Virus record (IMG/VR): IMGVR_UViG_3300033143_001371
Coordinates: 1 to 52,365 of that record
DNA length: 52,365 nucleotides
Direction: 5' to 3' (one strand)
From: a virus
This document shows positions 1,928 through 30,190 of the stretch, one piece after another. Each line of letters opens with the position of its first letter. Position 1 is the first letter of the stretch. The position numbers and the translations under genes are program-made. Under the pieces are notes generated by a model. It worked only from the letters and a program-made list of their open reading frames with translations. It had not been told where the DNA came from and did no database searches.

Positions 1928-2021
1928 TGGAGCGGAATCCTAGGAAACGAGCCTAGTACCTTCTGGTTGGAATCTCCTAAGAGACTGGGACCAGATGTGC
2001 TACCTTTAACACCAATTCCGC
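1928..2021 (-). ncRNA. Degenerate tRNA-Gly-like element 2 with extended anticodon arm
   Basis: Acceptor GCGGAAT/ATTCCGC is perfect, the D stem is GTGT/GCAC, the T stem CTAGG/CCTAG has a CTCGTTT loop, the discriminator is U and CCA is encoded. The anticodon stem TCTGG/CCAGA closes a 24-nt loop with its own hairpin (AGTCTC/GAGATT). The end of that loop reads TTCCAA, as in a normal UCC loop, so the element looks like tRNA-Gly with about 17 extra bases. The T loop is non-canonical. Confidence 0.6.
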
Positions 2022-3229: not shown

Positions 3230-3634
3230 TTAACTGGACTTATTCTTGATATATTCTGCGTACTTCTTGTCCGTTTTACCTATATGTGATATCCACCAGT
3301 GAATCAAGAAGTTTACCAGTTTATCAAGTTCAATATCATTTTTCAATATTGTTCCTGTGTTAAGTCGGTTAATCCTTAGTTCAAATGCCTGATGTAACTC
3401 AATATGTTTAACAAGTTCATCCTCTGGATAACCAATCTCACGCATTATGTTTTCTTCGTGAGCGAAATGTGTTTTAGTATAGTCTATGAGATCTCCAACA
3501 ATTCTTGATATTGCCGGAAGTGATATTTTGATACGTGAGCCAACTACCAACTCATTAATCATATTTAGAATTGTGTAGTGTTCTGCATCACACCGAACAT
3601 TACCTACACTATACTTTTCGTCCCATTTTAACAT
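3230..3634 (-). CDS. Bacteriohemerythrin (non-heme diiron O2-binding protein)
   Basis: The 134-aa protein has the bacteriohemerythrin layout and length. All seven diiron ligands of the family are present in order: His19 (CDAEH), His56 and Glu60 (HFAHEE), His77 and His81 (HIELH), His117 and Asp122 (HIGKTD). The usual W...VG...D..H opening and WW..H segment are also intact. Such proteins bind O2 reversibly and in bacteria serve in O2 storage, delivery or sensing; the protein is cytoplasmic and single-domain here. A ribosome site AAAGG precedes the ATG. It is encoded directly downstream of the tmRNA gene. Confidence 0.9.
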   Translation of the reverse strand: MLKWDEKYSVGNVRCDAEHYTILNMINELVVGSRIKISLPAISRIVGDLIDYTKTHFAHEENIMREIGYPEDELVKHIELHQAFELRINRLNTGTILKNDIELDKLVNFLIHWWISHIGKTDKKYAEYIKNKSS

Positions 3635-3654
3635 TTAATACCTTTATAATTTGG

Positions 3655-3960
3655 GAGGTTTGATTCTGTTGCCAAGACAAACCTCTGGAAAAACTCCGTT
3701 CAAGGCCTGCGGTTAAGCAGCTTGAGCGTATGCGAACTCATCGTTTGCGTTTACTTTAGTTTCTTCCATTTTTGCGAGCGGTTGCTTTCTCGTACAATCC
3801 ACTTATCGTCTGCCCTCTGTCGAAACCAGGACATCCCCAAATAAGCACTCAATATAACATTTCGACTCCGATTGTCTGGTGTGAGTGAGTAAGCGCTTAT
3901 TTGGAGATGGGGAGAATCGAACTCCCGTCCAAAGTAACTTATTGTCAGCTTCGTATTGTA
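3655..3960 (-). ncRNA. ssrA: Circularly permuted two-piece tmRNA
   Basis: On the minus strand the acceptor piece comes first: T arm GGGAG-TTCGATT-CTCCC, acceptor strand CATCTCC and A73 (ending at 3902; CCA not encoded). A 63-nt spacer follows (3839-3901) whose ends AAATAAGC/GCTTATTT prolong the acceptor stem. The coding piece starts at 3838 with GGGGATG and the conserved GGTTTCGAC. GGGGATG pairs with CATCTCC and gives a G3-U70 pair, the alanine identity element. The tag frame reads ANDEFAYAQAA then TAA, with the stop in the loop of a CTGC/GCAG hairpin as in bacterial tmRNA helix 5. The outer ends are approximate. The role is rescue of stalled ribosomes with SmpB and tagging for proteolysis. 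Confidence 0.92.
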
Positions 3961-3977
3961 ATATAAACCTATTTATG

Positions 3978-4253
3978 TTAGTAAGAATTAAAAACTCTTA
4001 CAATTTTAACATCTTTTGGAAGTTTTGTGATATCAACGTCATATCCTTCACACATATCATATTTATATTCCGAACAGGCCGATTTGATATTAACAGGCAT
4101 TCCATCACCTTCTGGATATTCGCTCTCAAAGAAATCATAGACTTCTTCTGGTACCTCTATCTTTGCCTTTGTACACATATCCCAAATCTCTTTCATCTGG
4201 AACCATCTTTCATCAGCTGGTTTTAAACCAACTACGTGTGTTGACATACCCAT
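3978..4253 (-). CDS. Conserved phage protein of unknown function, 91 aa
   Basis: It begins MGMSTHVVGLKPADERW and continues with KEIWDMC..A.IEVPEEVYDFF, a pattern I recall from small uncharacterised proteins of many phages, but no function is established. AGGAA precedes the ATG by 6 nt. It is the last gene before the tmRNA. Confidence 0.8.
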   Translation of the reverse strand: MGMSTHVVGLKPADERWFQMKEIWDMCTKAKIEVPEEVYDFFESEYPEGDGMPVNIKSACSEYKYDMCEGYDVDITKLPKDVKIVRVFNSY

Positions 4254-19414: not shown

Positions 19415-20800
19415 CTATTTGTTTGAATTTGCGCGAACTTCGTCAAAGTCATATTCACGAATCAGTTCACCATTACGGAATACTGTTTTCAGCTGGTCGC
19501 CTTCGGCACCAACGGAGTATGGAAGTGTTTGATACTTGCCATCGTTGAGGTTCAGAGAAAGAATACCTTTCTTAGATGCCTTACTCTGGTCACCAACAGG
19601 TGTCTTGAATACATCTCTCCATTCATCACCAACCTTGATAGCGGAACACTTCATAGCAAACTGTTGAGTATCACGGTCTACTTGTTGCAGAAGACCGCCA
19701 CCCATACCAAAAGCAACGTTGTCGATAGAGAAACCATTCTCGATAACTGCATCAACAATCTGACCAAGAGAGGTAGGGTTGATACCATCGCCTTGAATAA
19801 CGCGAACATTATCAAGCACCTTGTATCCTTTGTTGTTGATTTCTCCGCCGTATGATTTCCACAGCGATTTGAGAATGTCGATAACAACCTCAACAGGGTC
19901 ACCACTATCAGGTCGAGCAACGAACATAGAACCAGATTGCAGAATCATTTCCTTCATTCTGTTTCCGATGATATTATCAACAGCGTTTCGGTCATTGTAT
20001 GAATCAATAACACAAGCAATGATAGGGTATGTTCCACCATATTGTTCTACAAAGTTTCTGTATGCTTTCTCTTCGCCATCCTTACCCCATGAGGTAATGG
20101 TACTGTGTTCAGTCGCAGGGATAGAGAATCCAGCCATAGGTGCATTGTAGAATCTACGTCCTGCAATCAGAGCGGAGATAGTATCAGTGCCCATGAAGTT
20201 CACAAGGTGAGCAAGACCACCGATAGCGGCGCTCTCCATTGAACTAACACCGCGAGCACCAAAGTCGTGCAGTTTGAAGGCAAGACCTGCTTTCTCGATG
20301 TCATCAGAAGAGATGTCCATTGCGATAGAGATTTTGTTCTTCACAATCTTTGACTGTGTTGCTACAGTTGTTGGATACCAAATCGCACGTAGAATAGCAG
20401 TCTCAAAGTATGAGGTCACCCAGAAACATTTTGGGTCTGTATTCACAACGGTCGCAAGTACATTCTTGGTGTCAACAACAGTTCCTTCCGGTACTGCTTT
20501 GATTTCAAGAGGAATCTTACCATCAAGTTCATTGACGATATATTCCCAGCCTTCTCTGTTGAATGGAATGCCGTGTGCTTTGAACATCTCAGCGGCCTCT
20601 TCAATCATCCATGGTTTAATCTGAACAGACAGATATTGCTTGATGAACATCTGTAGTCCAAAGAATACAGTTTTATCGTATTCTCCACCACGACTCTCAA
20701 CGTATGAGTAGATGTATTCTGTTCCTGGAGGATATTGAAGCCATTGTGATGGCTTGTAAGAATCGGTATCCGCTATTGGGTTGTAATTTTGTGTATTCAT
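19415..20800 (-). CDS. nadV: Nicotinamide phosphoribosyltransferase (NAMPT/NadV)
   Basis: It converts nicotinamide and PRPP to NMN, the first salvage step to NAD+. The 461-aa protein spans the family and shows DTDSYKPSQWLQYPPGTE at the start, SRGGEYDKTVFFGLQ, HDFGARGVSS near residue 180, and the VARPDSGDP and VIQGDGI active-site stretches. The partner for the second step (NadM-Nudix) is encoded just upstream in the same operon. Phage NAD reconstitution of this type counters NAD-depleting defences. Confidence 0.96.
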   Translation of the reverse strand: MNTQNYNPIADTDSYKPSQWLQYPPGTEYIYSYVESRGGEYDKTVFFGLQMFIKQYLSVQIKPWMIEEAAEMFKAHGIPFNREGWEYIVNELDGKIPLEIKAVPEGTVVDTKNVLATVVNTDPKCFWVTSYFETAILRAIWYPTTVATQSKIVKNKISIAMDISSDDIEKAGLAFKLHDFGARGVSSMESAAIGGLAHLVNFMGTDTISALIAGRRFYNAPMAGFSIPATEHSTITSWGKDGEEKAYRNFVEQYGGTYPIIACVIDSYNDRNAVDNIIGNRMKEMILQSGSMFVARPDSGDPVEVVIDILKSLWKSYGGEINNKGYKVLDNVRVIQGDGINPTSLGQIVDAVIENGFSIDNVAFGMGGGLLQQVDRDTQQFAMKCSAIKVGDEWRDVFKTPVGDQSKASKKGILSLNLNDGKYQTLPYSVGAEGDQLKTVFRNGELIREYDFDEVRANSNK

Positions 20801-20843
20801 ATCATAGTACCCCTATGTTATAGTTTAAAATAAAGACCGTCTA

Positions 20844-21086
20844 TCAGTCTTTTTGGTTGTTGCCATAGTTCATGGTGATATTAACACCATCGGAGTCAAC
20901 AAGTCTCCGTTCATACTTGGTTGTTATGTCGTGAATTTGTTGAATAGCAAAGGACATACCTACAGCATCAAATTCACATACTTCATTTTTAATAAACTGT
21001 TGTTCGCTCAGCATCTGTCTTTCAAGAGATTGTAAACGTTTAACAGTTTGTCGAATTAGAGAATCGGTATTCATATTGTTAATCAT
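20844..21086 (-). CDS. Hypothetical helical protein, 80 aa
   Basis: GGAGGT precedes the ATG. The protein is mostly helix (RQTVKRLQSLERQMLSEQQF) and lies between the two NAD salvage genes, so it may be linked to them, but no domain is recognised. The hairpin AAGAC/GTCTT near its 3' end could act as a weak terminator or attenuator before nadV. Confidence 0.66.
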   Translation of the reverse strand: MINNMNTDSLIRQTVKRLQSLERQMLSEQQFIKNEVCEFDAVGMSFAIQQIHDITTKYERRLVDSDGVNITMNYGNNQKD

Positions 21087-21087
21087 A

Positions 21088-22086
21088 TCAGATACCTCCA
21101 GTCATTTTAATAATAATATCAGCATGGTCTTCGTATAGACGATTACGCATATTGAATACATCGTTCAATGGAGTCCACTTTGCCTTTTCTGCATCATCAG
21201 AACCAACAACCTTTGGAAGTTTTCCCGGCGGCAGTTCAATGAGATAAGCAGTTGTAATTGTACGACCTCTAAGTGAACGTTCAGGAGAATCAAACACTTG
21301 AGAAAACCTAATGTGTCCCTCAAGAACAGGTACAGGTACCTTGATCTTTGTTTCTTCTCTAAGTTCACGAATCATAGAATCTTGTAGTGTCTCATCCTGA
21401 TTAACGAATCCGCCAGGAAGTGCCCATAGGCCTTTGCCGGGATTCGCCTTGCGTTTAACAAGTAGAATGTGACCCGATTGAATGACAACAGCATCGGTAG
21501 TAACGAATGTAGGTGCGTATGGTGCTTTAGACCAAGCTGACTTGTAAGACTGTATGAATTGTTGTTCTTCGCACAGATTTTTGTAGTCGTCTGTATCTTT
21601 GAATTTCTTTAGGAAAGAACGAACAGCACTTGGCAGTACGACAGAGATTGTACCGAATTCAAAATACTCGGTACGAATAGAGGTGGAATTCAGGTCATCT
21701 ACATTTGGAAACTCATCTGTTGCCATTTCTGGAAACATATCAAGGTAGAATGAACTTTCATCTTTGTGGTGTCCAACAAGAACAACTTTACCGGTAGTAT
21801 TCGTATCGATAACTTTACGAACGGCCGTCAGCCATTGTTGAATGTTGTATGAACGGTCTTCGATACCACGATAGGTGATACTTGGACGTTGAACAGACCC
21901 ATCGAGCATCATAACTCGTTCGGCGTATGTGAAAGGATTTTTGAATGTACGCGGTTGGTTTGTTGAACCAATAAGGACTAAAACCTCATCAGCAACTTCA
22001 CTTGCGTATTTGATTAGTTCGGCGTGTGCTTTGTGCGGTATCTGAAATCTACCGATCACCACAGCGGTGTTAAATTTTTTGTTCAT
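21088..22086 (-). CDS. nadM: Bifunctional NMN adenylyltransferase / Nudix hydrolase
   Basis: 332 aa. The N-terminal NadM domain has GRFQIPHKAH (residues 12-21, the nucleotidyl-transfer HxGH-type motif) and makes NAD+ from NMN and ATP. The C-terminal half is a Nudix domain with a full box (GGFVNQDETLQDSMIREL, then REETKI), which in such fusions hydrolyses ADP-ribose. Together with nadV it gives the route Nam to NMN to NAD+. The fusion is known from cyanobacteria and T4-like phages such as KVP40. A late promoter and 5' hairpin precede it. Confidence 0.95.
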   Translation of the reverse strand: MNKKFNTAVVIGRFQIPHKAHAELIKYASEVADEVLVLIGSTNQPRTFKNPFTYAERVMMLDGSVQRPSITYRGIEDRSYNIQQWLTAVRKVIDTNTTGKVVLVGHHKDESSFYLDMFPEMATDEFPNVDDLNSTSIRTEYFEFGTISVVLPSAVRSFLKKFKDTDDYKNLCEEQQFIQSYKSAWSKAPYAPTFVTTDAVVIQSGHILLVKRKANPGKGLWALPGGFVNQDETLQDSMIRELREETKIKVPVPVLEGHIRFSQVFDSPERSLRGRTITTAYLIELPPGKLPKVVGSDDAEKAKWTPLNDVFNMRNRLYEDHADIIIKMTGGI

Positions 22087-29437: not shown

Positions 29438-30175
29438 CTATTGTGGATATGTCTTCGCAAGAACCTTTTCAAAGTCCCACTTACCATCAACAAGTTTCAT
29501 GTAATGTTTCGCGGCAATCTTATGGCCATATACCATTACGTGTGTTGCAATACCTCTTTCACACATCTCAGGAGTACTTAACCAGAAATCTTTACCAAGA
29601 CACATCTGTTTGAATTCTTTCTTAGTCATGTAACCTTCGTCAACCAACATACTGTAGAAATATGGTTGTAGGTTTGTTTCAGAGTGACGATGCGCCTCTC
29701 CAATGTCTCCAGATTTGCCCCAATATACTGTCGAGTATGTATGGAACATTAATTCAGAAGATTCATAAACAACACGTTCATCACCCATAAGGAACATAAT
29801 AGCACCAGCAGAGAATCCACACGAATCAAGAACAGTCATGGTCTTGCCGTTGAACATATCAGTGACCATGTTGTGATAAACTTTCAATTCGTTAACATAT
29901 CCACCATTACTATTGATAGATAATTCAAGAGTATCAGCACTGTCTGTAGACTGACGGAGTTTATCGATGATAGCGTGTGTACCACGTCCATCTTCTCCAA
30001 AATCTCCTACATATAACTTGAAATGTTTTCTTGCGGGTATCATTCCAAATAGACCTTCTTCGCCTACAGGTACCTTCTGTTCAGGTACTTCCGTGACAAC
30101 AAGAGTATGATACTTGCTATTGACAATATTATCATTCTGTTCTTCTTGTTTTTCTTGTTTTTGTTTTTTGCTCAT
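29438..30175 (-). CDS. ClpP-like serine protease (S14)
   Basis: About 245 aa. After a Gln/Lys-rich N-terminal tail, the ClpP fold is marked by INSNGGYV near residue 87, the nucleophile in GFSAGAIMFLMG (Ser122) and His145 in MFHTYS. The third catalytic residue is not certain from sequence. ClpP-like phage proteins serve as prohead or processing proteases or replace host ClpP; here it lies between phoH and gene 43. TAGGAG precedes the ATG. Confidence 0.82.
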   Translation of the reverse strand: MSKKQKQEKQEEQNDNIVNSKYHTLVVTEVPEQKVPVGEEGLFGMIPARKHFKLYVGDFGEDGRGTHAIIDKLRQSTDSADTLELSINSNGGYVNELKVYHNMVTDMFNGKTMTVLDSCGFSAGAIMFLMGDERVVYESSELMFHTYSTVYWGKSGDIGEAHRHSETNLQPYFYSMLVDEGYMTKKEFKQMCLGKDFWLSTPEMCERGIATHVMVYGHKIAAKHYMKLVDGKWDFEKVLAKTYPQ

Positions 30176-30190
30176 CAAATCTCCTAATAT

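Follow-up and report, generated by a model that had tools for sequence, protein, structure and literature searches.

A beta-like, circularly permuted two-piece tmRNA gene in a T4-type phage genome from IMG/VR

The IMG/VR virus record IMGVR_UViG_3300033143_001371, analyzed here over its whole stretch of 52,365 nucleotides (hereafter, the window), is confirmed on sequence grounds to encode a circularly permuted two-piece tmRNA (Table 1). The reading that we favor, with a probability of roughly 0.8, is that this gene provides a working two-piece tmRNA to a T4-type phage and belongs to a beta-like lineage that is common in viral contigs. Permuted order, an intact tRNA-like domain with its G3-U70 pair, and an open tag frame ending in -AA can all be read directly in the window.

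Anatomy of the gene and of its junction

A permuted tmRNA in a phage had been proposed in a first-pass annotation and is confirmed by covariance models. The Rfam model RF04321 matched positions 3713-3960 over its full length (213/213 model positions), with 94.3 bits and an E-value of 4.6e-17, exceeding its gathering score of 47, and ARAGORN independently made a permuted tmRNA call on the same gene. Along the minus strand, from 5' to 3', the T arm and the acceptor 3' strand precede the acceptor 5' strand and the tag. Other structural claims of that annotation were likewise borne out: CATCTCC and GGGGATG pair over 7 bp, including the G3-U70 alanine identity pair, the tag that ARAGORN reports is the one previously read (ANDEFAYAQAA-stop), and the stop codon lies in the predicted loop of a hairpin (3725-3700). 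We take the conserved segment TGGTTTCGAC at 3819-3828 to play a D-arm-like role. The predicted precursor fold reached -103.8 kcal/mol (z -4.43), with 0/100 shuffles as good. Chance resemblance, or a tRNA false positive, is refuted by this fold z, by the E-value, and by the agreement of two independent programs (RF04321 search and ARAGORN), and its probability is practically negligible.

Table 1. Features of the window discussed in the text.
Feature	Position	Strand	Basis or remark
Permuted tmRNA gene	3652..4005	(-)	Span of the beta_tmRNA model match; RF04321, ARAGORN; ends approximate
T arm GGGAG-TTCGATT-CTCCC, first piece	3910..3926	(-)	Sequence, RF04321
Acceptor 3' strand CATCTCC; U70 opposite G3	3903..3909	(-)	Sequence, RF04321
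Discriminator A73 (3902) and spacer (3901-3839), without CCA	3839..3902	(-)	Fold, junction parsing
Acceptor 5' strand GGGGATG, start of second piece	3832..3838	(-)	Sequence, RF04321
TGGTTTCGAC, conserved segment, presumably D-arm-like	3819..3828	(-)	Sequence, RF04321
Helix 2 (long-range), first-piece strand TACAAT	3955..3960	(-)	Model pairs, RF04321 and beta_tmRNA
Helix 2 (long-range), second-piece strand ATTGTA	3793..3798	(-)	Model pairs, RF04321 and beta_tmRNA
Tag frame ANDEFAYAQAA-stop, GCA...TAA	3713..3748	(-)	ARAGORN
Hairpin with tag stop codon in loop	3700..3725	(-)	Fold
3' hairpin of the mRNA-like piece	3655..3685	(-)	beta_tmRNA model, fold
Mini-frame ATG TTA TAT TGA in spacer, GGAG at 3869-3866	3849..3860	(-)	Function doubtful
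ClpP-like protease	29438..30178	(-)	PHROGs; between polymerase and phoH genes

The gene was compared with viral and bacterial permuted genes. The viral set started from 104 permuted ARAGORN calls, of which eight were excluded (four from a genome-contig scan, the window's own copy L081, and L264, L273, and L278, which had implausible tag frames) and one (L250) was unparsable; collapsing repeats gave 77 viral genes including the window's (76 others, from IMG/VR scans), among which near-copies remain. The viral scan patterns demand TTCGA and CTCC, and other kinds of viral gene are consequently under-counted. For the bacterial set, 398 Pseudomonadota genomes were searched and RF04321 matched above its cut-off in 157; 70 loci were taken, of which 60 had ARAGORN calls and 58 were parsed, a non-random sample leaning to high scores. 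The tag end -AA was common to 69/77 viral and 58/58 bacterial permuted genes, with -AQAA in 6/58 bacterial tags. G3-U70 was present in 77/77 viral genes, where U70 is imposed by the search patterns and position 3 is restricted to G or A.

Counting A73, the spacer has 64 bases; its two ends pair with each other over 13 bp, which together with the 7-bp acceptor gives 20 uninterrupted pairs in the predicted fold, G-U counted. The extension of the acceptor stem by AAATAAGC/GCTTATTT, as previously described, is thus real and longer than was claimed, and the precursor of two pieces is supported by RF04321, ARAGORN, and the fold, the cutting itself being predicted. The 20-bp helix is predicted to hold the tmRNA precursor together. 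No CCA is encoded after A73, where AAT stands instead; CCA is encoded by 9/9 tRNAs of the same window and in 71/77 parsed viral permuted genes (window included). In 67/77 viral genes (window included), the spacer forms a stem of 7 bp or more, allowing G-U pairs and a stem start up to 7 bases from either end. What usually separates the acceptor and spacer stems is either a small internal loop or a mismatch, often C74 opposite the A of TGAT, and pairing from the first base over at least 7 bp was restricted, among the 77 viral genes, to the window and L288. The same fused junction occurred in 2/58 bacterial genes, the beta-like L352 and the alpha-type L349, both with ACCC. Hence, the spacer stem is general among viral permuted genes, and the fused form lacking CCA is the unusual part.

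This junction raises the rival reading of a decaying tmRNA copy, in which the tRNA-like domain and the tag would still be readable while CCA loss and the fused helix would block maturation. CC after A73 is missing in only 1/76 other viral genes (L308) and in 0/58 bacterial genes, and the window gene has a long branch in the tree described below, all of which would suit decay; however, the paired parts, G3-U70, and the tag frame are all intact, a CCA-less, fully paired junction is also present in the bacterial gene L352, which scores high (158 bits), and pairing is likewise complete in L288, whose helix contains the CCA. We consider decay unlikely. In T4, tRNAs without an encoded CCA are matured via RNase BN and CCA addition, so a route exists. 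As for the mini-frame of the spacer, a Shine-Dalgarno-ATG-stop motif of this type appeared in 52/5000 shuffles (about 1%), and since the motif was sought after the fact it was given no weight as evidence.

Lineage and genomic setting

The first-pass annotation took the gene as a sign of an alphaproteobacterial host or donor and suggested searches with the alpha_tmRNA and cyano_tmRNA models. Both scored below their cut-offs: alpha_tmRNA (RF01849) reached 45.1 bits against a gathering score of 50, the gene also lacking the T loop of GGGCRGTA kind and the ANDN tag, and cyano_tmRNA (RF01851) reached 40.9 bits against 70, covering model positions 54-122 only. The best of the clan was beta_tmRNA (RF01850), with 66.5 bits over 331/331 positions, below its gathering score of 84, which makes the gene beta-like and not a member of the family. 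Among 20 sources scanned, the beta_tmRNA cut-off was reached by 15, the window's copy being among the other five, and none was listed as alpha or cyano.

The bacterial permuted genes differ accordingly, with 57/58 lacking a TTCGA T loop (nearly all had GGGCRGTA) and 53/58 carrying ANDN tags. L352 was alone among the parsed bacterial genes in combining TTCGATT with an ANDE tag (ANDERFALAA), and its CCA-less spacer helix runs on from the acceptor as in the window, a property that is all that the alpha-type L349 shares with the window gene. In a quick tree of 129 genes with SH-aLRT support, for which the tool warns that the placement of long rows is unsure, the window gene fell into a viral set of 13 rows (e.g., L100, L242, L319, and L332), the smallest well-supported set (SH-aLRT 99), on a long branch (0.6) that leaves its placement unsure. 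Bacterial rows formed one set apart from the window (56/57, SH-aLRT 100), with L352 on the viral side. The highest identity of the window gene was 68%, to L290. From the subtype scores, the contrast in T loop and tag with bacterial genes, and the tree, the alphaproteobacterial attribution is unsupported, and a better fit is a host or donor among the betaproteobacteria, or else descent within viruses.

A comparison of the tag with those of candidate hosts, also suggested earlier, returned no identical tag followed by TAA in a genome collection of 84,980 species (one genome each, contigs of at least 3 kb) or in viral contigs. Searching for the host by the T-arm pattern in genome contigs gave mostly Actinomycetes among the matches listed and was uninformative, and blastn of the tmRNA gene against 50,697 phage records produced no match.

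Two-piece tmRNAs of phages are already published (PMC9004378), and the window gene is a divergent addition to them. According to the accessible text of that paper, tmRNA was found in 402/18,146 phage genomes, in 133 unique forms; marine or aquatic samples account for 50 of the 53 two-piece forms, and Melnitz is the worked example. The accessible parts of other sources give the RF04321 model and a count of 79 phage entries for the tmRNA database (PMC11915505), an earlier list of phages with tmRNA (PMC4131195), and mentions in other phages (PMC12656738, PMC7162821). Melnitz resembles the window in having a permuted two-piece ssrA in a T4-like phage; by its description in the text available, its gene is of an alphaproteobacterial, SAR11-like type and has a 3' domain in which a glutamine riboswitch is predicted (PMC9004378), whereas the window gene is beta-like and lacks CCA, and Rfam reported no riboswitch match in the window. 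With the betaproteobacterial RF01850 the gene shares all 331 model positions, the TTCGAUU T loop, and the lack of CCA after the acceptor, where the consensus has ACCC, not ACCA, but it scores 66.5 bits against 84, carries the tag ANDEFAYAQAA, and has AAT after A73. The viral permuted tmRNAs of IMG/VR (L100, L242, L319, and L332) share the well-supported set of 13 rows, and spacer stems are the rule in them; viral genes of this type differ in encoding CCA (71/77), in usually having their stems parted, and in identity to the window gene of 68% at most.

A PHROGs scan of 30 minus-strand frames identified DNA polymerase, processivity clamp, clamp loader, SbcC-like and SbcD-like proteins, and helicase, which are presumably equivalent to the T4 genes, as well as PhoH, thymidylate synthase, and NAD-salvage genes. 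These core replication genes of T4 kind, together with the polymerase comparison, agree with the previous assignment to a T4-type phage. The polymerase was at best about 43-44% identical to those of named phages, the nearest among phage records being cyanophages, and in IMG/VR it matched a near-twin (L001) at 100% and the next best contig at 50%; judging by the distance from the polymerase, the L001 contig stops before the expected tmRNA place. A tmRNA search covering 34 of the 80 polymerase relatives gave one match above the cut-off (in the record of L016) and one weak match (19.3 bits, in that of L002), and for this reason the permuted tmRNA gene seems dispensable and to come and go in this phage group. 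Upstream of the gene no promoter stood out clearly, a scan having given 36 sites in 9 kb versus a mean of 27.8 (sd 4.7), and PHROGs had no match for 8/10 frames nearest to it.

Other features of the window were also observed. Directly downstream of the tmRNA, at 3230-3634 (-), lies a hemerythrin gene (PF01814, 8.3e-12) whose nearest PDB relative is DcrH, with no close relative in IMG/VR and three weak matches in 50,697 phage records. A NAD salvage pair at 19415-22086 (-) comprises nicotinamide phosphoribosyltransferase and a cytidyltransferase/NUDIX protein. At 1928-2021 (-), a cloverleaf (z -3.65) has a Gly-like acceptor (by eye), CCA, and a 12-bp arm with an internal loop in the place of the anticodon arm; it had no Rfam match at E 1 and no ARAGORN call.

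No SmpB was found in the window, nor in any of the 33 viral records that have a permuted tmRNA and measure at least 30 kb, records that may be fragments. This lack would suit a rival reading in which the phage molecule mainly competes with the host tmRNA or serves as its decoy, either by titrating SmpB or AlaRS or by adding a less degradable tag. The absence of the exact tag with TAA from the genome collection and the viral contigs also speaks for this reading, as does the inhibition by a DS6A-like molecule reported in the accessible text of PMC4131195 and PMC11915505; a decoy role has been proposed for the tag-less DS6A tmRNA. However, DS6A is without a tag frame, whereas the frame in the window is open and has the -AQAA end of those six bacterial tags, and we hold the decoy to be very unlikely.

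Linked clpP and spacer-nested genes among the relatives

ClpP was encoded in 17/33 viral records (at least 30 kb) with permuted tmRNA, and in 16 of these 17 the tmRNA is followed on its own strand by clpP at a distance of 0.9-3.1 kb (L095, L236, L244, L258, L260, L262, L269, L281, L288, L296, L300, L303, L314, L317, L325, and L342; L258, L262, L281, and L300 look like one virus). The exception, L308, has its clpP 36 kb away on the other strand. Among comparison records of at least 24 kb (17 polymerase relatives and 14 viruses with one-piece tmRNA, unmatched by lineage or length), ClpP occurred in 3/31, namely the window's near-twin G001 and the records of L254 and L330, the latter with ClpP about 3 kb from a one-piece tmRNA on the other strand, as computed from coordinates. 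Since the linked cases are mostly in one tmRNA clade, with L095 and L317 outside it, the conservation of this linkage may be explained by descent. The nearest named clpP carriers, BUCT-ZZ01 and Sinorhizobium phage Phosso, have no annotated tmRNA within about 6 kb, on annotation only. Phage ClpP is mentioned without a tmRNA link in the accessible text of PMC5964084, PMC6536676, and PMC10013915, and among the papers listed in our literature search none dealt with linkage between phage clpP and tmRNA.

The linked arrangement was rejected for the window itself, where the ClpP-like gene is about 25 kb off, on the upstream side, and its product is 20-27% identical to those compared (L419, L420, L421, and L423, the last from phage BUCT-ZZ01). 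The match of this protein to PDB ClpP is weak (E 0.008), with the Ser/His/Asp triad residues aligned, and it is a possible partner of the tmRNA.

Spacers were longer in viral genes (median 87.5, n=76) versus bacterial ones (34.5, n=58). Among viral spacers of at least 150 bases, 4/5 contain a near-filling frame of 49-64 codons, matched in 0-0.3% of 300 shuffles; most shorter spacers have no such frame, with L238, L280, and L306 having 22-24 codons at 2-3% of shuffles. A crude count of Shine-Dalgarno-led frames of at least 8 codons, allowed to run on past the spacer, gave 11/77, not above shuffles (mean 6.7, maximum 14), so that frame length, homologues, and dN/dS are what support nested genes. 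In the clear cases, ATG stands at about spacer base 14-19 and AAGGA is mostly found shortly after the CCA, while in several the TGA stop lies within the TGAT preceding the acceptor. In the predicted folds of two spacers, AAGGA is in a stem. A scan with the pattern CCANAAGGA, which itself selects for nested frames, gave 33 loci, of which 28 were parsed and 18 had an ATG frame of at least 22 codons, many of them copies or already known.

The nested genes (L291, L094, L295, L332, L238, L280, L451, L459, L462, and L466, with relatives L426-L434 and L438-L443) belong to several unrelated families, two of them with homologues and one of these also free-standing. A 50-residue family has 12 loci, 10 of them nested (by eye, automatic flags having missed several), with at least six near-copies and one locus (L436) truncated at its contig end; of the other two, L437 is not nested and L435 has no more than an acceptor-like remnant. 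A 64-residue family has 11 loci, six nested (by eye) within differing tmRNAs, one with an alpha-type T loop, and five free-standing, of which the four uncut by a contig end lack the VSL ending that the spacer stem dictates. Nei-Gojobori dN/dS was 0.06-0.46 among 13 nested pairs from three families of short sequences, which points to selection acting on the putative proteins. Neither the 50- nor the 64-residue family had a match in named phages, seven nested products had none in PHROGs, and a weak search of openly licensed papers showed no case of genes nested in tmRNA spacers among the titles and abstract openings listed. Both the clpP linkage and the nested genes of the relatives look new; a linked clpP and a nested protein gene are absent from the window.

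Some further loci were unusual. In L460, all that a 56-base spacer retains of the nested 64-residue family is its final codons (LSESIPLFKVSL), and this spacer looks like a deletion remnant. In L088 (533-1580), a frame resembling a GIY-YIG homing endonuclease (by eye only) interrupts one permuted tmRNA, and a second, complete permuted tmRNA with the tag ANDELFALAA (by eye) follows; L087 has two tmRNA matches too.

Proposed role and significance

Trans-translation, that is, ribosome rescue with tagging for proteolysis, is the most likely role of the window gene, each step being proposed from sequence. Host RNase P would cut the precursor at the GGGG end and another nuclease downstream of A73; for a fully paired end without CCA, RNase Z/BN or RNase III would be suitable candidates. 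The host CCA-adding enzyme would finish the 3' end. Host AlaRS would then charge the phage tmRNA and host SmpB, presumed to be present, would deliver it to ribosomes that had stalled during takeover on mRNA that was cut or degraded; these ribosomes would be freed, and the tagged fragments would pass to proteolysis of ClpXP type, by a host or possibly a phage protease. Against a working tmRNA we counted the lack of CCA, the beta score below cut-off, the long branch, the lack of SmpB, the patchy occurrence, and the lack of a clear promoter.

In the relatives, clpP near the permuted tmRNA in 16 of the 17 ClpP records fits tag and protease as one function. In this context, a doubtful extension is that a virus-specific two-piece tmRNA lineage has turned into a takeover module, in which the phage tag would direct proteins to phage ClpP and the spacer would express small proteins, released or silenced by the maturation cuts; the window would then be a reduced form, with its distant ClpP-like gene and a three-codon frame behind GGAG.

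In brief, the gene described here is a beta-like, CCA-less form in a T4-type phage, and it raises the question of how a fully paired precursor without CCA is matured. In the accessible text of earlier reports on phage two-piece tmRNAs, roles were proposed without tests. If the patterns of the relatives hold, the tag, the protease, and the nested gene would be directly testable in cultured carrier phages.
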